Origin: Candidatus Phycosocius spiralis
GTDB lineage: Bacteria > Pseudomonadota > Alphaproteobacteria > Caulobacterales > Aquidulcibacteraceae
Reading direction: 5' to 3'
Assembly: GCF_030158815.1 (NCBI RefSeq)
Contig: NZ_BPFZ01000003.1
Coordinates: 62,001-126,000, forward strand
DNA: 64,000 nt
The translations under genes and the position numbers were made by a program. Of this stretch, positions 52,611 through 64,000 are shown in pieces; the stretch's first letter is position 1; every line of letters begins with the position of its first letter. The notes under the pieces are model-generated. The model saw only the letters and a list, made by a program, of their open reading frames with translations, had not been told where the DNA came from and made no database searches.

Positions 52611-53891
52611 CTAATCATCTTTTGCGATTGTTCGGCGCAGATGGCGTAAAATCATCCAGACGGCAAAGACAACGATGGGTGCTGCTACGCCGGTAGCGGC
52701 CTTGGCATTGAAATGAACAAAGGTTTCAGCCACCCCTTCCATAACAAAATAGATTAGTCCTAAGGCGTAATAAGATATGGCCGCAACTGAAAGACCTTCG
52801 ACGGTTTGTTGCAGGCGAAATTGCTCCTGCGATCGGCGATCCATCGAAGCCAAAAGACCAACATTGATCGCTTCGGAGGCTACCTCAACGCGCGTATTCA
52901 GCATTTGGGTGGTGCGTGCGATCCGTTCAATCACGTCACGCTGTCGCTGGGCCACAGCCACACAGGTTCGCATCGCCGGTGCAAGCCTACGTTCCATAAA
53001 GTCTGCAATGGTTGGTCGCCCGTCAATAGATTGCTCACGCAATTGACCAATTCGTTCAAGCACCAAGCCTTCATAGGCGCGCGCAGCAGCAAATCGGTAG
53101 GTGGTTGCCCCAACCATGGCTTCAGCCTCACCAGCAAGAGCAGCCAAACGCGACAAGAGGTTGCGATCCGCCTCAACGCCACCTTCATCGGCAACTTGTA
53201 TAGCAGAAGCAGCGGCTTCAGCCTCAAAGCGGGCCAGCGTAACAGATGTTAAATTGGCCAGAGGAAACGCCAAGAGCGCCAACAAACGATAGGTTTCAAT
53301 CTCAAATAATTGCTGTAGCACCCGGCCAGCGGTAATCGGATTGGGATCGGACTGCACCATGACAAAGCGGGTAAATGAATCAGGGCCGGGCCTAAAATCA
53401 CTGAACACATCAACCGTCCCGTTGGCGACACGGGCAGCGATGGTCTCGCTTTCGGCAAATGGCAAGCGATCAGGTGGTGTAACCGACAAAACCACATGGG
53501 CGGCGCACAAAATCTCGCCCGGTAATGCAGCTAGCCAATCTTGAGGAACAAGGTTGAGCGCTGTGCTTTCAAACATAAAATCTGGACTAGGTGGGCTTTC
53601 GCAAAATACAGTCCAAGTAGAAATCTCAGTGTGACGCTCCCAGCGAAGGCGCCAGTTGCCACCATCTAAAACACACCATCGCGCATCTGGACCGGGCTCT
53701 GAGGTTCCGATTTTTCGACACAGCGCCGCCATATGCGCACGGTCGGCATCAACACCACCTTCACCCGACATGGTTGCAATCCTTGAAGCTAAATGAGGTG
53801 CTAGTACGGGCGTTGAGGGGCGTGCATGGGCTTCAGCCAGAAGAACATCGCGTTGGGGATGAAACTTCCATTGTAAATTTTGGCTTCTCAT
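52611..53891 (-). CDS. DUF3422 family membrane-anchored protein
   Basis: The 426-aa protein begins with the DUF3422 hallmark HPQRDVLLAEAHARPSTPV and ends with two membrane segments (VEGLSVAAISYYALGLIYFV and GVAAPIVVFAVWMIL). The middle is mostly helical. DUF3422 proteins are widespread in proteobacteria with no known function; the tail resembles CorA-like membrane ends only loosely. ATG 53891 is used; an in-frame TTG 18 bases earlier is an alternative. Confidence 0.87.
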   Translation of the reverse strand: MRSQNLQWKFHPQRDVLLAEAHARPSTPVLAPHLASRIATMSGEGGVDADRAHMAALCRKIGTSEPGPDARWCVLDGGNWRLRWERHTEISTWTVFCESPPSPDFMFESTALNLVPQDWLAALPGEILCAAHVVLSVTPPDRLPFAESETIAARVANGTVDVFSDFRPGPDSFTRFVMVQSDPNPITAGRVLQQLFEIETYRLLALLAFPLANLTSVTLARFEAEAAASAIQVADEGGVEADRNLLSRLAALAGEAEAMVGATTYRFAAARAYEGLVLERIGQLREQSIDGRPTIADFMERRLAPAMRTCVAVAQRQRDVIERIARTTQMLNTRVEVASEAINVGLLASMDRRSQEQFRLQQTVEGLSVAAISYYALGLIYFVMEGVAETFVHFNAKAATGVAAPIVVFAVWMILRHLRRTIAKDD

Positions 53892-54041
53892 GCTGTGTGT
53901 TTTCTCCAATTCGCAACCTTTACGTGGTTGCTAGGCACGGATCGTCAAGCAGACTGTGCCATTATGTGAACGCTAGGCTTTAGCCATCATAGGATCAGAT
54001 TTGGTGGAACGCGCCTCATTGTCTTTATATCATTCTAGACA

Positions 54042-56988: not shown

Positions 56989-58476
56989 CTAATCCTTACC
57001 ATAATCCTTAAGCAATTGCGCCGCTGCCAATCGACCCGAAAGTGTCGCCATAGGGATACCAGGTCCTGGATGGACAGAACCCCCCGCTAAATACAATCCC
57101 CGTAAGGCACTTCGCGCACCGGGCCTTTGGAAACTGGCAAAAGGACTATGATTCGCCCGGCCGTAGAGCGCACCACCCGTGCCTGGGAACAATGCATGAA
57201 AATCAGTTGGGATGGTCTGAACACTTTGTTCCATATCGATGGTAAGACCACATTGTTGCATGATGCGCCAAGCGGCTTGTTTAGCCTGCGCAGGATCAAA
57301 GGCTGGATTGTCAGATAAATCACCATCGGCGGGCGCATTGATCAGGATCAATAGGCGCTCTGCGCCATCGGGAGCAGTGCAGGTGTCATCGCGGTCTTGC
57401 GCACAGATATAGACGGTGGGCGATTTGGGCGGCGTTCGCGCCTTAAACACATCGTTGAATTCAGCCCGGTAATCATCTGAAAACAAAACACTGTGATGGG
57501 CAAGGGCCATTCCTTGTGTGCGCGCATTTATGCACCAGGTGATAGCAGACTGCGTCCGGTTGGTCGGTGCCACTGGTTTTGCCGCATTGCTAGCCTTTTT
57601 GCCCAACAGCCCTAGACCCAAAGCAGACAAATCGCCGTTAAACACAATCGCGTCAGCAACCAGTGTTTCACCATTTTCGAGCTCTACACCGCAGACCCGA
57701 CCACGCTGAACGAGGATTTGAGCTACCGAGCATTCAAAACGAAAATGCGCACCTACATATTTGCCAAGAGTGTGCATCGCACTACTGACCGCGGCCATAC
57801 CACCTTTTACGCGCCAAACCCCAGTTTGTTCAACATGGGACACCAGCATCAATGTTGCGGGTGCCCAAAAGGGTGAGGATCCACAATAAGTGGCATAGCG
57901 ACCAAATAATTGTTGTAATCTTTCATCTTTAAAATACTGACCTAGTGCGGACCACATGGTCTGGTGCGGGGCCGTGTCCAACATGGCACCAAGATTTTGA
58001 AAACCCAAGCGCCGCACAAGCTCTAATGGGCCCGGTCTTTGGCTTTCAATGAACGGCCCACGCAAGGTCTCAAAAATTCGACGGCTACGCTCGCAAAAGG
58101 CCAAATAACCCGAAGCCTCGCGTGCGCCCGCAAATTCGTCAATCGCCTCGGCAGATTTTTGGGTGTCGGCATAAAGATCAAGCTTCCCCCCCGATGCCCA
58201 TGCATGGCGGGCTAAAATCTCGACTGGCACTAGCGTCAGATGATCATCAAAGGCGAGACCCGCATCAGCAAAAAGCGCGTCAAACACCCATTTCATCGTA
58301 AAAACCGTCGGACCAGCATCAATCGCGGTCGTGCCAATCCTGATTTGGCGCATCTTGCCGCCACACGTGGCGGCGCGCTCCAGAACAGTGACGTCACAAT
58401 TGTTCCGGGCGAGGTCTGCAGCGGCGGCCAACCCTCCCATGCCGGCTCCAATGACAATGATTTTTGGGCGCTTCAA
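56989..58476 (-). CDS. crtD: 1-hydroxycarotenoid 3,4-desaturase CrtD
   Basis: The 495-aa CrtI-like flavoprotein has VIGAGMGGLAAAADL, ATCGGKMRQI and DAGPTVFTMKWVFDALF followed by ARHAWASGGKLDLY, the pattern that distinguishes CrtD from CrtI. The C-terminus has GLYLAGGSVHPGPGIPMA. CrtD desaturates 1-hydroxy carotenoids after CrtC acts. Its start overlaps the upstream membrane-protein gene by four bases (ATGA), so the two are coupled. Confidence 0.9.
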   Translation of the reverse strand: MKRPKIIVIGAGMGGLAAAADLARNNCDVTVLERAATCGGKMRQIRIGTTAIDAGPTVFTMKWVFDALFADAGLAFDDHLTLVPVEILARHAWASGGKLDLYADTQKSAEAIDEFAGAREASGYLAFCERSRRIFETLRGPFIESQRPGPLELVRRLGFQNLGAMLDTAPHQTMWSALGQYFKDERLQQLFGRYATYCGSSPFWAPATLMLVSHVEQTGVWRVKGGMAAVSSAMHTLGKYVGAHFRFECSVAQILVQRGRVCGVELENGETLVADAIVFNGDLSALGLGLLGKKASNAAKPVAPTNRTQSAITWCINARTQGMALAHHSVLFSDDYRAEFNDVFKARTPPKSPTVYICAQDRDDTCTAPDGAERLLILINAPADGDLSDNPAFDPAQAKQAAWRIMQQCGLTIDMEQSVQTIPTDFHALFPGTGGALYGRANHSPFASFQRPGARSALRGLYLAGGSVHPGPGIPMATLSGRLAAAQLLKDYGKD

Positions 58477-59219
58477 AACCCCAATCCTAATGACTTATTT
58501 GATTGGGAGGTGCTGTGTGCTTCTAAACGCAGACGGATTTGGCGGTGGTGGTATAAGATGATACCAAGCCCTGTGATAAGCGGTATCGCCCAAAGGACCG
58601 GATGCAGGGCGATCGTGGGCATAATCCTAACCGCGCCAAAAGCAAAGAATGCAGTATAAACAGAAATCCCAGCCCCAACAATGGCTTTGACGTGCTCTTT
58701 TAAATAAGTGAGGGGCGCAGGATTGGGCGTAAACATAAAGAATAAATTGGTGCCAGCGGTCGCAAAGCCAACGATGGAGATTACAACCATCAATAATTGA
58801 CCAATCAAAATGCCTTCCAGAGCACAACCTAGCGCCGCAACAATTAGGATCGGCTGCAAGAACAGGTTAAGCCCCCTTCGATTAGCACGATGATTGGCCT
58901 TATTTTTTAGGGTCTCGACCCCGTACCATGCGAGATTAATGGTCAAAATCGCCAGATAAAACATCATGATGCCAAAGATACCGCGCACGAAAACGGGATC
59001 TTTGAGATGGGGATGGGTGCTCAAGGGGTCGATCAGGGTGCATAAGCTTAAGAGGACTGCAATGAAACCTGCCATCAAGATCGTACGAGCGAATATCTTA
59101 CCCCATAGGCGGTGGTTCGGGGACCCTTTGCGCCCCAAAACCGGCACCCAAAAGCATACCAAGCCCACCGCGCCAAACACGATATGAAAGGCAACGAGCG
59201 TGTGAAATAGGGTCAGCAT
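58473..59219 (-). CDS. Polytopic membrane protein coupled to crtD
   Basis: The 248-aa protein has about seven membrane segments. The opening LFHTLVAFHIVFGAVGLVCFWVPVLGRKG, followed by NHRLWGKIFART, resembles DUF2306-type predicted membrane proteins. It has no assigned function. Because it lies first in an operon with crtD and overlaps it, it could affect carotenoid handling or the membrane, but this is context only. Confidence 0.7.
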   Translation of the reverse strand: MLTLFHTLVAFHIVFGAVGLVCFWVPVLGRKGSPNHRLWGKIFARTILMAGFIAVLLSLCTLIDPLSTHPHLKDPVFVRGIFGIMMFYLAILTINLAWYGVETLKNKANHRANRRGLNLFLQPILIVAALGCALEGILIGQLLMVVISIVGFATAGTNLFFMFTPNPAPLTYLKEHVKAIVGAGISVYTAFFAFGAVRIMPTIALHPVLWAIPLITGLGIILYHHRQIRLRLEAHSTSQSNKSLGLGF

Positions 59220-59360
59220 GCAAGGAGCTCCAGCCAGCAGCGTCTAACAGACTGGACATAGTGACGCGTCCAGAGCTAGGCTTCAAGAGGGCGTCAATGC
59301 CAAGGTGGCGACGCGGGCACTTTAAGGGGTCTTTCCACATGAATTTATGGATGATCAAGG

Positions 59361-60758
59361 GTGCTTGAACCAGAGCCAGTCCACAAGGGTTCTAGCCCCT
59401 ATTGCCCGCCACGACCCGCGCCCTTGGGCCCAATGTCAAGCTTGGTGCGGGTGATCCGCCAAGGCGATGGCGATCTTTTGAGCTTGATGCCAGCTGACGC
59501 CTATCGATTACCCATGGGCCCATTGGGCTATTCCAGACGTTCGATCCAAATCATCAATGATCCTGAATTAACCAAGCCGATTTTGGCTGATCCCAACGAT
59601 CTTTTCCCCAAAAATGATTTGATGGTTGGCGCTTTGGCACCCTTGGTCGGCAATTCAATGTTTGTCTCGAGTGGGGATTTGTGGCGTCGGCAACGGCGCA
59701 TGATTGACCCGGCTTTTTCCCATATTCGTCTGGCTAAAGCCTTTCCCGATATGGTCGGTGCCATACATGATTTTGAGGCGCGCCTCGCCAGCGCTAGTGC
59801 GGCGGCCCAGCCGATTTCGCTGGATTTGGCAATGGGTCAGTTAACCGCAGACATTATCTGCCGCACGGTGTTTTCAACCTCACTTGCGAACGAGACTGCA
59901 CGCGATGTTTATGATTCTTTTGCTTTTTTTGAGCGAAGCGTCGCCCATGTTGAGTTAACGCGCTTGATCTTTGGCAAGCCATTTGAAGAGATTCCACAGC
60001 GTAGAGACGTGCTGCAGGCTTGTGAAAATATCCGTGGCCATATTGGCCGATTGCTGGACACCCATGTCGCAAAAGGTGCCAAGTTTGACGATATCGCAAC
60101 CGCCATCATTGCCGCGCGCGATTTAGATACTCATGAACGCTTCAGCCGCGAAGAATTGATCGACCAATTGGGCGTGTTTTTTCTGGCAGGCCATGAAACA
60201 ACGGCCAGCGCTTTAACTTGGGCGTTCTTCATTGCCGCCATGATGCCTGAAGTGGCCGAGCGGATACGCCAAGAAGTCCAAGAAGTGGCAGGCACTGGCG
60301 AGATCGGCTTTGATCATATCAAGCGCCTAACCTACACCAAAAATGTGTTTAAAGAGACATTGCGGCTTTATCCACCTATTACCTTTATTCCCCGCGTTGC
60401 AGCTGAAGACACGTTGATTGGGGGCAAGAAAATCAAACGTGGCACCATGGTGATGATTGCGCCTTGGGCGATCCATCGCCATCAGTTGCTATGGCTTGAT
60501 CCCGATGTGTTTGATCCTGATCGCTTTTCATCAAGCCGCGAGCAGGAAATAGTTCCAGGCTCCTATTTGCCATTTGGCGCGGGGCCACGTGTGTGTGTGG
60601 GTGCGGCTTTTGCCACAACCGAAGCGACGCTCATTTTGGCCTATATCCTGCGCACCTATCAATTGGTAGTGCGCCAACCAGAACAAATTCGCCCTGTCGC
60701 GCGCCTTACCACCAGACCGGCGCAGGAAATTTTTGTCGATGTGGTCAAGCGCATATGA
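59361..60758 (+). CDS. Cytochrome P450
   Basis: The 465-aa protein has the complete P450 signature set: I-helix AGHETTASAL, ExxR in KETLRLYPP, and the heme loop FGAGPRVCVGAA with the Cys ligand. No membrane anchor is seen, which is usual for bacterial P450s. The GTG start has AAGG directly before it, so the true start may be different (ATG 59436 is in frame). The stop overlaps the ATP-grasp start as ATGA. Being coupled to crtB, it may oxidise a carotenoid; the exact reaction is unknown. Confidence 0.92.
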   Translation: MLEPEPVHKGSSPYCPPRPAPLGPMSSLVRVIRQGDGDLLSLMPADAYRLPMGPLGYSRRSIQIINDPELTKPILADPNDLFPKNDLMVGALAPLVGNSMFVSSGDLWRRQRRMIDPAFSHIRLAKAFPDMVGAIHDFEARLASASAAAQPISLDLAMGQLTADIICRTVFSTSLANETARDVYDSFAFFERSVAHVELTRLIFGKPFEEIPQRRDVLQACENIRGHIGRLLDTHVAKGAKFDDIATAIIAARDLDTHERFSREELIDQLGVFFLAGHETTASALTWAFFIAAMMPEVAERIRQEVQEVAGTGEIGFDHIKRLTYTKNVFKETLRLYPPITFIPRVAAEDTLIGGKKIKRGTMVMIAPWAIHRHQLLWLDPDVFDPDRFSSSREQEIVPGSYLPFGAGPRVCVGAAFATTEATLILAYILRTYQLVVRQPEQIRPVARLTTRPAQEIFVDVVKRI

Positions 60759-61945
60759 CTAAATCTGTTTTATTGACGATGGGCAGGTTACCCAAAGCGC
60801 TTGATTTCGCTCGCTCTTTTGCTGCTTTGGGTTGGCGGGTGGTGGTGGCTGAACCCTATCGCACCCACTTGACCGGGGCTTCAAACACGGTGGCAAAATC
60901 AGTGCAAACCCCGCCGCCTTGTGCTGGCAAACTGGCTTATTTATCGGCCTTACAAACCATTATTGAAGCCGAAAAAATCGATCTTGTGCTGCCCTTGTCG
61001 GAAGAGACGATGCACGTCGCGCATTTGCGTGATCATTTGCCCAAAACTGTTCAGCTTTTCGCGCCACCCACTGAGCAGCTTTTGGGGTTGCACCACAAGG
61101 CCCTATTTCAAAAGCGCGCCGCCGCCCATGGCTTAAGCGTACCCGACACGGCTATTTTAGGAACCAAGGCGGCTGAGAAACTGGCACATACCCATAATTA
61201 CGTGATTAAGCCCGTTTATTCCTGCTCTGGCCGGGGGGTCAGTTTGCACAGAGCGGGCGAGGCGTTGGAGAAAAGCCAGGACCTAAATCCCCATGAAGGG
61301 GCCGTGGTTCAACGCCAATTGCAGGGCCAGCAATACAGCAGTTTTGCGATCACCCATCAGGGCAAAATTCAAGCCCATGTCATTTACCGAGGCATCGTCA
61401 TGTCGGGCAGTGTGGCGGTAGCTTTTGAGCGGGTTGAACAAGGAGCCATAGAGGAGTGGGTCAACCGTTTTGTGGCCGCTGAGCACTATAGCGGCTTTAT
61501 CTCCTTTGATTTTTTTGTCGATGATCAGGGCCTAGCCCAAGCGATTGAGTGCAATCCACGCGTCACCAGCGGTGTGCATTTTATGGAGACAGAGGATTTG
61601 GCCCCTGCGATTTTAGCGCCCTTTTCTCAGCAGATCCGCATGAAACCCGCCCAAAGGATGCAGCAATTTTATCCCACCTTGACTGAAGTTCAGGCCACCA
61701 TGTTTAAGGGGCCTCAGTTCTGGAGCCACTTAAAGATCTTGCGCACGGCAAAAGATGTCACGTGGTGCGCCCGCGATCCAATGCCATTTGTGACCATGCC
61801 GATCACCGCCTTTTCCATCATCGCGATGTCAATGCGGGAACAGCGCAGCTTTGGTCAAGTATCAACCCAGGATATTTCTTGGTTTGAAGGCGAAGAGCTA
61901 TCCCCTTTGTCTGCGCGCTTGAAAAGTGGCGGTCTCCATGATTAG
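60755..61945 (+). CDS. ATP-grasp ligase in the carotenoid cluster
   Basis: The 396-aa protein has an N-terminal Rossmann-like part (SVLLTMGRLPKALDFARSF) and an ATP-grasp core: the Lys in YVIKPVYSCSGRGV, VVQRQLQGQQYSSFA and the metal-binding IECNPRVTSG. ATP-grasp enzymes activate a carboxylate by phosphorylation and join it to an amine or thiol. The substrate is unknown. It is translationally coupled to the P450 upstream and overlaps crtB, which suggests a shared product. Confidence 0.88.
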   Translation: MTKSVLLTMGRLPKALDFARSFAALGWRVVVAEPYRTHLTGASNTVAKSVQTPPPCAGKLAYLSALQTIIEAEKIDLVLPLSEETMHVAHLRDHLPKTVQLFAPPTEQLLGLHHKALFQKRAAAHGLSVPDTAILGTKAAEKLAHTHNYVIKPVYSCSGRGVSLHRAGEALEKSQDLNPHEGAVVQRQLQGQQYSSFAITHQGKIQAHVIYRGIVMSGSVAVAFERVEQGAIEEWVNRFVAAEHYSGFISFDFFVDDQGLAQAIECNPRVTSGVHFMETEDLAPAILAPFSQQIRMKPAQRMQQFYPTLTEVQATMFKGPQFWSHLKILRTAKDVTWCARDPMPFVTMPITAFSIIAMSMREQRSFGQVSTQDISWFEGEELSPLSARLKSGGLHD

Positions 61946-63101
61946 GTCGGGAGCAAGGTTTGGCGGCACTTTGGTGGATATCCCCCATGGGATGAAGCTT
62001 GGATGGAATGGTGATGCAATGAGTGCCCTTGAAAGCCTTATGACCGAGCAGGGCCATCCTCCTGTCTTTGCAAGCCATTTAGACCGCTTGGCCTGCCGGG
62101 ATTTAATTAAAACGGGCTCCCACTCTTTTTTCTCTGCCTCCCTCTTATTACCCGAAGAGCTGCGTGAAGCTGCCTATGCGCTTTATGCCTTTTGCCGCTT
62201 GTCCGATGATGCTGTGGATGTTGAAAATGGCAATGGCTTGGCGATTTTGCGGCTGAAAGAGCGACTGGACGGGGTTTATGGCGGCGAGCCAGAGCCCTTG
62301 CCGTCTGATCGATGCTTGGCAGACGTCGTGCGCCGATATGCCATCCCACGCTATGTCTTTGACCTATTGCTAGAGGGCTTTGAATGGGACGTTTCTGGGC
62401 GCACCTATAAAACGCTCGACGACGTTGAAGCCTATGGTGAGCGCGTGGCGGGATCGGTTGGTGCGATGATGGCAGCTTTGATGGGCGTGCGCGATCCTGC
62501 GATGGTTGAGCGCGCGTGCGATCTTGGGGTAGCGATGCAGTTGACCAATATCGCCCGCGACATTGGTGAGGACGCGCAAAATGGTAGGCTCTACCTGCCG
62601 CTGGATTGGTTTGTGGCGGCAGGTCTAGATGCCGGCGATTGGCTTAAGGACCCGCAATTCTTGCCCCAGATCGGCGACATGACATCGCTTCTTTTAAGCC
62701 GAGCTGAGAGCCTCTATCGCCGCGCCGATCAAGCCATCGCCCGTTTGCCTGCCCTTGTTCGCCCAGCCATATTTGCGGCGCGCTTACTATATGCAGAAAT
62801 TGGCAGGGTTATTCACGATCAAGGCTATAATTCTATTCATGAGCGCGCCAATACTAGCCCCGCGCGCAAGGCGTGGTTGGTGGGTGCGGCGATGCAGCGT
62901 GCGGCGCGACCTATGCCCAAAGCAGCGCTTACCATCCAAGACGGACTAAACCGACCATTGGTGGCCGCGATCTGCTTAGAGCCACCTCCACCCCGTGCGG
63001 CCAACAAACGGCCCGGTGGCGTGAAAGATGACCTCAATTGGGTGTTGGACTTGTTTTCTGATCTTGAAGTGCGGGATCGAACCGGGAGGCGCAGTTCATG
63101 A
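61938..63101 (+). CDS. crtB: Phytoene synthase CrtB
   Basis: The 387-aa enzyme joins two geranylgeranyl diphosphates to phytoene. The two Asp-rich motifs are DDAVD (within YAFCRLSDDAVD) and DIGED (in LTNIARDIGEDAQNGRLYLP). The ATG at 61938 overlaps the ATP-grasp gene; GTG 61926 or ATG 62019 are alternatives, and the first 30 residues look unconserved, so the real start may be later. The stop overlaps the next small gene as ATGA. Confidence 0.93.
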   Translation: MIRSGARFGGTLVDIPHGMKLGWNGDAMSALESLMTEQGHPPVFASHLDRLACRDLIKTGSHSFFSASLLLPEELREAAYALYAFCRLSDDAVDVENGNGLAILRLKERLDGVYGGEPEPLPSDRCLADVVRRYAIPRYVFDLLLEGFEWDVSGRTYKTLDDVEAYGERVAGSVGAMMAALMGVRDPAMVERACDLGVAMQLTNIARDIGEDAQNGRLYLPLDWFVAAGLDAGDWLKDPQFLPQIGDMTSLLLSRAESLYRRADQAIARLPALVRPAIFAARLLYAEIGRVIHDQGYNSIHERANTSPARKAWLVGAAMQRAARPMPKAALTIQDGLNRPLVAAICLEPPPPRAANKRPGGVKDDLNWVLDLFSDLEVRDRTGRRSS

Positions 63102-63262
63102 GTCCCAATATGCTATTTTTCTTGGAGTTTGTCGCCTTCAGTGGCTTAGCGCTCGCCTTCGCGATCCAACAAGTAATCTCGCTCTCACCCCAAAAGGGCG
63201 ACAAGAAAGAGGAAGACGAAAAGCCCACCCTACCAAAAACTTCGGGGCATTCTGAAGGGTAG
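63098..63262 (+). CDS. 54-aa membrane protein following crtB
   Basis: The short ORF starts on the crtB stop (ATGA) and encodes one membrane helix (MLFFLEFVAFSGLALAFAI) and a Lys/Glu-rich tail (KGDKKEEDEKP). It is not recognised. Its last 33 bases overlap the convergent crtC gene. The coupled start and clean topology argue that it is expressed, perhaps as a small membrane subunit or anchor. Confidence 0.6.
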   Translation: MSPNMLFFLEFVAFSGLALAFAIQQVISLSPQKGDKKEEDEKPTLPKTSGHSEG

Positions 63263-64000
63263 CATGGCGCGAATGATGGGCTGGCGTAGCCGCTCTAAAT
63301 TCAGAGTTTCATGCATCATCGTAACGCGTTCTCCATCGATGCTGGTTGATAACGCAGAGCGGGCATAAAAGGGCGTATCTTCCAACGATTTTAGGACACT
63401 TATCGGCGCATCGCGATCGCACCAAGCCTTGCGACGAATGCCCCAGAAGCTCGAGGATAAACCTTTATGCGTCATGTGTGCCAAGGAAGTTACCTCGCCA
63501 CTCTTCGAGACGCTCAGATGCGCAGACCCTTCGCGCTGATCGGGGTAGATAACGTCGTAGAATATACGCAAGTCATTGCCGAGATGCGCGCGCCCCCAAT
63601 GCCAATGGGTAAATGCCCGCTCTAAGGGCTCAGTTCCATGATTGGTGTCAAAATAGCCATCACCAGACCAAGAGAGAGCTGGGTGACTAAGGTCCAACTC
63701 AACCCGGGCACGCGGTGCCAACGGTCGCCATTGATGACGCCCTGCTGGATCAAGATCAAAGGCCGCTTCGGTCATCACTTCGGGAAAAAGGCGGATTGTA
63801 CCTTTCACGCGCAACGGGATCGGGGCGCAAATCTCATCGATTGTGATGGTCAGAACCCCATCTTCCCAAACCAAACGGCTTGGCCCAATACTGAGTTCAG
63901 TGGCCGTGCGCGACAAGGTTCGCGCACCCCGCTCGGTCATCGCCCATCTGCCACGTGCGCCATCAAATCGGTAAAGCGCCACATTGACTGCACAATGGTC
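63230..64000 (-). CDS. crtC: Hydroxyneurosporene synthase CrtC, 3' part
   Basis: The frame stays open to the window edge (DHCAVNVALYR), so the true start lies beyond 64000. WAMTERG near the visible N-terminal side and the later GTEPLERAFTHWHWGRAHLG and SFWGIRRKAW segments are CrtC features. CrtC adds water to the end of neurosporene or lycopene, giving 1-hydroxy carotenoids, the substrate of CrtD. It converges on the 54-aa gene. Confidence 0.9.
   Translation of the reverse strand, partial: DHCAVNVALYRFDGARGRWAMTERGARTLSRTATELSIGPSRLVWEDGVLTITIDEICAPIPLRVKGTIRLFPEVMTEAAFDLDPAGRHQWRPLAPRARVELDLSHPALSWSGDGYFDTNHGTEPLERAFTHWHWGRAHLGNDLRIFYDVIYPDQREGSAHLSVSKSGEVTSLAHMTHKGLSSSFWGIRRKAWCDRDAPISVLKSLEDTPFYARSALSTSIDGERVTMMHETLNLERLRQPIIRAMLPFRMPRSFW

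Follow-up and report, generated by a model that had tools for sequence, protein, structure and literature searches.

A conserved gene module of a P450, an ATP-grasp ligase and a membrane protein, possibly for carotenoid tailoring, in aerobic phototrophs

The 64,000-nucleotide stretch of the Candidatus Phycosocius spiralis genome that we analysed (contig NZ_BPFZ01000003.1, positions 62,001 to 126,000; hereafter 'the window') carries, near its 3′-end, genes for a cytochrome P450 (59361-60758, plus strand), an ATP-grasp ligase (60755-61945, plus strand) and, divergent from the P450, a 248-residue membrane protein, MP248 (58473-59219, minus strand). That the three genes form one conserved module is well supported; that they serve carotenoid tailoring in aerobic anoxygenic phototrophs, with oxidation by the P450 followed by ATP-driven coupling of a nucleophile, we judge somewhat better than even. 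The latter reading is based on the finding that an oxygenase and an ATP-grasp enzyme, both intact, are kept together with a membrane protein beside carotenoid (crt) genes in phototrophs. A carotenoid is the likely substrate, given this context and a motif in the MP248/P450 spacer; the exact chemistry we infer.

The original prediction for this DNA, made from its letters, had proposed a P450 and a ligase as a tailoring branch separate from the standard spirilloxanthin/spheroidene route. The branch itself is well supported, with the correction that the unit has three genes and not two: the genes listed earlier are real, but MP248, the third constant partner, was missing from the list. The kind of interpretation offered, an unrecognised carotenoid tailoring branch, was right as far as it is supported, which is in part, and the observation extends further than noted.

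Conservation of the three genes

When GTDB species genomes were scanned with an alignment of the ligase, 110 relatives emerged, and 80 of these were retained as loci; with the window's own locus they make the set of 81 used below, and 54 loci (the window's included) had room on both sides. Locus maps were made with protein profiles, and crt and bch counts refer to genes on the stretch read. The P450 adjoined the ligase in 76 of the 81 loci and a crt gene was present in 68, so the expected recurrence of the pair beside crt genes was strongly borne out; absence of the pair from relatives, named in advance as evidence to the contrary, was not seen. Among loci with room on both sides the P450 adjoined the ligase in 53/54, the one exception being the lone ligase of L090, and MP248 was present in 51/54.

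About 70 of the sampled loci, in aerobic phototrophs, hold all three genes. The loci belong to Caulobacterales, Sphingomonadales, Acetobacteraceae, Rhizobiales and Halieaceae, and most lie within photosynthesis or crt clusters. These contexts included complete photosynthesis clusters, crtY-crtI-crtB-crtD loci of Novosphingobium and Luminiphilus-type loci with crtD and bchI-bchD-bchO; contigs of metagenome-assembled genomes (MAGs) labelled Acidobacteria, a label that is unverified, add a further one. Of the 68 loci showing both MP248 and the P450, 67 have them divergent; the ligase lay downstream of the P450 in 49 loci and faced it in 27. In the window's genus all eight other searched genomes retain the module genes (the ligase of G006 is split over two contigs), with identities of 79-81% for the P450, 77-80% for MP248 and 65-66% for the ligase. 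G017, a genome from another genus of the same family, carries these genes too, in another arrangement in which P450 and ligase converge. Strain-specific or chance neighbourhood was rejected, as the linkage persists across many gene orders.

One could also take the three genes for unrelated passengers, carried along by a mobile photosynthesis cluster and sharing no function, and their patchy distribution among phototrophs would suit such an origin; however, the trio stays linked in differing gene orders, inside and outside photosynthesis clusters and in several classes. The linkage already disfavours the passenger explanation, which we hold to be very improbable.

Two gammaproteobacterial MAGs have an extra protein after the ligase (L110:4643-5632 and L111:5625-6647; ∼37% mutual identity) that was not seen in other loci; MP248 is not nearby in either. 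A search of plasmids for relatives of the ligase gave nothing closer than 27-34% identity.

Phototrophy and regulation

The tie of the module to phototrophy is well supported. PufL/M are encoded in 46 of 49 bearer genomes; as to the three without a PufL/M match, the genome of L060 has BchY, and in L062 bchP adjoins the module. Alphaproteobacteria were sampled evenly (387 genomes, 26 phototrophic and 361 other); MP248 was found in 3/26 of the former versus 0/361 of the latter. An orthologue of the ligase was present in only one genome of this sample, the window's own (the other five matches scored <200 bits); the module is therefore an accessory trait. Two photosynthesis clusters may hold shorter versions of the branch: in G217 the P450 and MP248 stand beside bchI (L125:5000-7142) and in G197 a related P450 stands alone beside bchI (L138:9470-10864); in neither case does the stretch read include the ligase.

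In some loci the divergent spacer between MP248 and the P450 (59220-59360 in the window) carries a site of the photosynthesis-regulation type. The string TGT-N12-ACA, which we take to be the PpsR/CrtJ motif, was present in 20 of 67 such spacers, as compared with a mean of 1.6 and a maximum of 7 in 300 draws of same-length windows from the same loci. Its bearers are mostly sphingomonads, several of them closely related, which leaves fewer independent cases; Rhizobiales loci have it too. The string appears in papers on PpsR/CrtJ (e.g. PMC5362033). In the spacers of the window's genus TGT-N12-ACA is absent; a block strongly conserved in the genus, GCGTCTAAC..CTGGACATAGTGACGCGTC (window ∼59240-59290), is distinct from the PpsR motif and is perhaps another operator or promoter.

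Shared photosynthesis regulation could by itself have brought the module next to crt genes, with its true substrate being another isoprenoid or photosynthetic lipid, such as bacteriochlorophyll, a quinone or a hopanoid. Loci L056, L069 and L106 have bch neighbours and no crt genes on the stretch, and 8 of the 81 loci show neither crt nor bch. On the other hand, the most constant crt neighbour of the module, crtD (1-hydroxycarotenoid 3,4-desaturase), which adjoins MP248 in the window, is a neighbour in 59/81 loci, including Novosphingobium crt loci without bch on the stretch. We find a non-carotenoid substrate unlikely, if a good deal less so than mere passenger genes.

The three proteins and their possible chemistry

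The P450, a soluble protein of 465 residues with a GTG start, is a clear family member (Pfam p450, 251 bits versus a cut-off of 22.8, 2.7e-74), in which the heme cysteine, ExxR and I-helix motifs were all found; C412, E332/R335 and G277-H278-E279-T280 (AGHET) are invariant in 38 homologues. Its best sequence match in the PDB is the plant carotenoid hydroxylase CYP97A3 (LUT5), at 7e-46, in a comparison restricted to families with solved structures and decided by small margins. The two proteins are distant and we claim no family membership; the match may serve as a lead only.

The AlphaFold2 (AF2) model of MP248 has seven long helices (predicted local distance difference test, pLDDT, 93), and a fold search of the PDB with it gave no match at E<=0.001. 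The score of MP248 against DUF2306, 17.4 bits, is weak and lies below the Pfam gathering cut-off of 31.6; DUF2306 matches at E<=1 were seen in 26 of 36 MP248 members, the best being 3.5e-05. Residues H12, H69, E175, H176, K178 and R198 are invariant and may mark a polar site.

The ligase (396 residues) belongs to the ATP-grasp enzymes: it matches PF02655 with 36 bits (cut-off 23.2) and its model (pLDDT 93) has the ATP-grasp fold, the closest folds including PurK, L-amino acid ligase BL00235 and 2pn1. K115, K152, E265 and N267 are invariant, as is R269 of the ECNPR motif. Against the PRK06849 equivalog (NF005315) it scored 262.8 bits, below the curated cut-off of 406, which places it in the same superfamily and not in the equivalog. 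In the tree the module ligases form a clade of their own (support 100/99), apart from MysC and from ligases of clusters with a KAS III enzyme.

MysC is counted in the PRK06849 family on the strength of the mys-type clusters of Nostoc sp. HK-01 and G196. 4-Deoxygadusol is a cyclic enolone, not a carboxylate. MysC, the mycosporine-glycine ligase, joins glycine to 4-deoxygadusol and so puts an amino acid on an oxygenated light-screening small molecule (PMC10510106), a role comparable to that proposed here. The module ligase shares the ECNPR motif with MysC; the two differ in that identity is 26-27%, the clades are separate and no mys genes lie near the module loci. We rejected the ligase as MysC proper on account of its clade and of its crt/photosynthesis context in place of a mys cluster. 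The cluster of G196, an alphaproteobacterium, is of the mycosporine type (L130:5843-10799), with an AroB-like synthase, a methyltransferase, a MysC-like ATP-grasp enzyme and a D-Ala ligase-like protein.

The ligases nearest in the tree, with 28-33% identity, come from clusters of KAS III, reductase, MBL hydrolase, F390-synthetase-like, GNAT and PRK06849 genes (L127, L128, L141, L142, L144-L147), though neither a P450 nor MP248 nor any crt gene lies on the stretches concerned. This uncharacterised natural-product cluster occurs on plasmids of Rhizobium, Shinella, Roseateles, Paraburkholderia, Paenibacillus and Pontibacillus, as well as in alphaproteobacterial genomes. Its GNAT protein was considered as a shared partner of the ligase and rejected, being absent from carotenoid loci.

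In the carotenoid tailoring that we favour, the P450 would use O2 to oxidise an end group of a linear carotenoid supplied by CrtC/CrtD; the ligase would activate the oxidised carbon with ATP and attach a small nucleophile to it, with an amino acid or amine as the probable choice, to give a polar carotenoid; MP248 would be the membrane partner, handling the substrate, supplying electrons or performing a further step. An order with the P450 first and the ligase last fits the loci of G217 and G197, since these have a P450 without the ligase. More specifically, the module may produce natural carotenoids that carry nitrogen (as an amide or enaminone formed with an amino acid or amine). They would be a so far unnoticed, O2-dependent class of pigments shared by aerobic phototrophs of several classes, a proposal that we advance tentatively, as it is less probable than not.

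Several observations count against carotenoid tailoring. Extracts of Ca. Phycosocius spiralis gave spirilloxanthin-like absorption peaks only (PMC10008586); any product of the module would therefore be minor or have the same chromophore. The resemblance of the P450 to CYP97A3 is not specific, as CYP3A, CYP102 and CYP4 score almost as well. The ligase stands alone in L090 (Geminicoccaceae). Finally, the correlations of distance matrices among MP248, P450 and ligase (0.88-0.92; 0.83-0.90 for these versus crtD) are high mostly through common descent, because crtB and crtC reach 0.96, and alone are no proof of joint function.

As to the electrophile, sequence does not discriminate between a carboxylate and a keto/enol group. 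The route of the original prediction, from methyl to carboxylate to amide, is a special case of the tailoring reading: the P450 would turn a methyl end into a carboxylate, and the ligase would form an acyl phosphate and then the amide. Likeness of the ligase model to BL00235 and PurK, as well as the invariance of E265, N267 and R269 in ECNPR, is consistent with it. Yet no feature of the ligase sequence selects for a carboxylate, the L130 MysC-like ligase, an enzyme whose relatives act on an enolone, has ECNPR as well, and a conjugated carboxylate would change the chromophore reported for Ca. Phycosocius spiralis. MysC, the closest characterised enzyme found for the ligase, uses a different substrate, and we rate the carboxylate route as improbable, roughly half as credible as carotenoid tailoring in general.

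A MysC-like reaction, in which the P450 makes a keto/enol end and the ligase phosphorylates the oxygen and swaps in an amine to give an enaminone carotenoid, seems a shade less probable again. The ligase does share the PRK06849 family with the MysC-type ligases of Nostoc sp. HK-01 and G196; purple bacteria are known to produce 2-keto carotenoids aerobically, according to a 2023 review (PMC10604819), and the lineage of Ca. Phycosocius spiralis is without crtA (PMC10008586). However, identity to MysC is low, the KAS-cluster ligases are nearer, and a simple 2-ketone differs from the 1,3-dicarbonyl-type substrate of MysC.

The module lies amid genes of the spirilloxanthin/spheroidene pathway (CrtC, CrtD, CrtF, CrtA) and probably uses their products. 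It differs from that pathway in its enzymes: the 2023 review names no pathway P450 (CrtA, the aerobic ketolase, is stated not to be one), and its consulted passages show no ATP-dependent ligase (PMC10604819). The Ca. Phycosocius spiralis paper, which reports the absence of crtA and the spirilloxanthin-like peaks, mentions no P450 in its text (PMC10008586), and a paper on Caulobacterales phototrophy names neither P450 nor ATP-grasp. Our literature search, whose coverage mostly excluded subscription papers so that absence is no proof, gave no description of the module, no work joining carotenoid, ATP-grasp and P450 in a tailoring sense, and no lead on carotenoid amides or PRK06849. A three-gene branch would bring ATP-dependent ligation, a new enzyme class, into carotenoid biosynthesis; given that a 2012 compilation states that hetero-carotenoids were not detected in nature (PMC6268381), a nitrogen-conjugated carotenoid, if true, would establish a new class of pigments. 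Aerobic phototrophs are widespread in lakes and sea, and the MP248 family, without a fold match in the PDB, gains a concrete context.

Gene junctions and neighbouring genes

The window's 3′-end lies in the crt section of a photosynthesis gene cluster: bchO and crtI on the plus strand are followed by crtD and MP248 (minus), P450, ligase, crtB and orf54 (plus) and crtC (minus), and the same contig holds crtE, crtF, bchC, bchX, bchY, bchZ and pufLM beyond the window. Gene calls and family matches agree with the earlier placement of P450, ligase, CrtB and a 54-residue membrane protein between crtD and crtC. The assignments are crtD at 56989-58476 (minus; NCBIfam NF045637, 659 bits, cut-off 580), its start overlapped by the MP248 stop; phytoene synthase crtB at 62019-63101 (plus; NCBIfam PhytnSynCrtBRhod, 362 bits); and carotenoid 1,2-hydratase crtC from 63230 to 64000 and beyond the window end (minus; NCBIfam NF045922, 235 bits for the in-window part).

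Overlaps had been claimed for each junction of the plus-strand genes. Those of P450/ligase (ATGA, 60755-60758) and crtB/orf54 (ATGA, 63098-63101) were confirmed; that of ligase and crtB was not. The P450/ligase overlap persists within the genus, reading either ATGA or GTGA, and across all loci the most frequent P450-ligase spacing is −4 (27 of 49 co-directional pairs). An overlap of ligase and crtB requires a crtB start at 61926 or 61938, whereas in eight relatives crtB begins with ML(S)... ∼90-100 nucleotides past the ligase stop, and the upstream frame soon closes. The ATG at 62019 matches this position and is thus the homologous start; in this genome it is more likely to be used than the in-frame ATG at 61938. 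With the crtB starts of eight relatives past the ligase stop, a fully overlapping operon that includes crtB was rejected, and translational coupling of the module to crtB is doubtful; ligase and crtB are coupled in some Rhizobiales loci. The window's ligase is 12 residues longer than the 384 of its relatives. The ligase-crtB spacer of the eight relatives (L036-L041 and L045 among them) contains a conserved sequence, CCATGATTAG, which in the window (61936-62021) supplies the stop of the ligase gene and a potential start of crtB.

The single-helix membrane protein orf54 (63098-63262, plus strand), a genus-level companion of crtB, was rejected as a module member and is probably outside the module: it follows crtB only in its own genus, in G017 and in a group of Hyphomonas-type loci. 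A predicted protein of 432 residues is encoded at 52611-53909 (minus strand); its relatives, found in 19 of the compared loci, are frequent neighbours that sit near bchO and crtI or, in L090, by the lone ligase.

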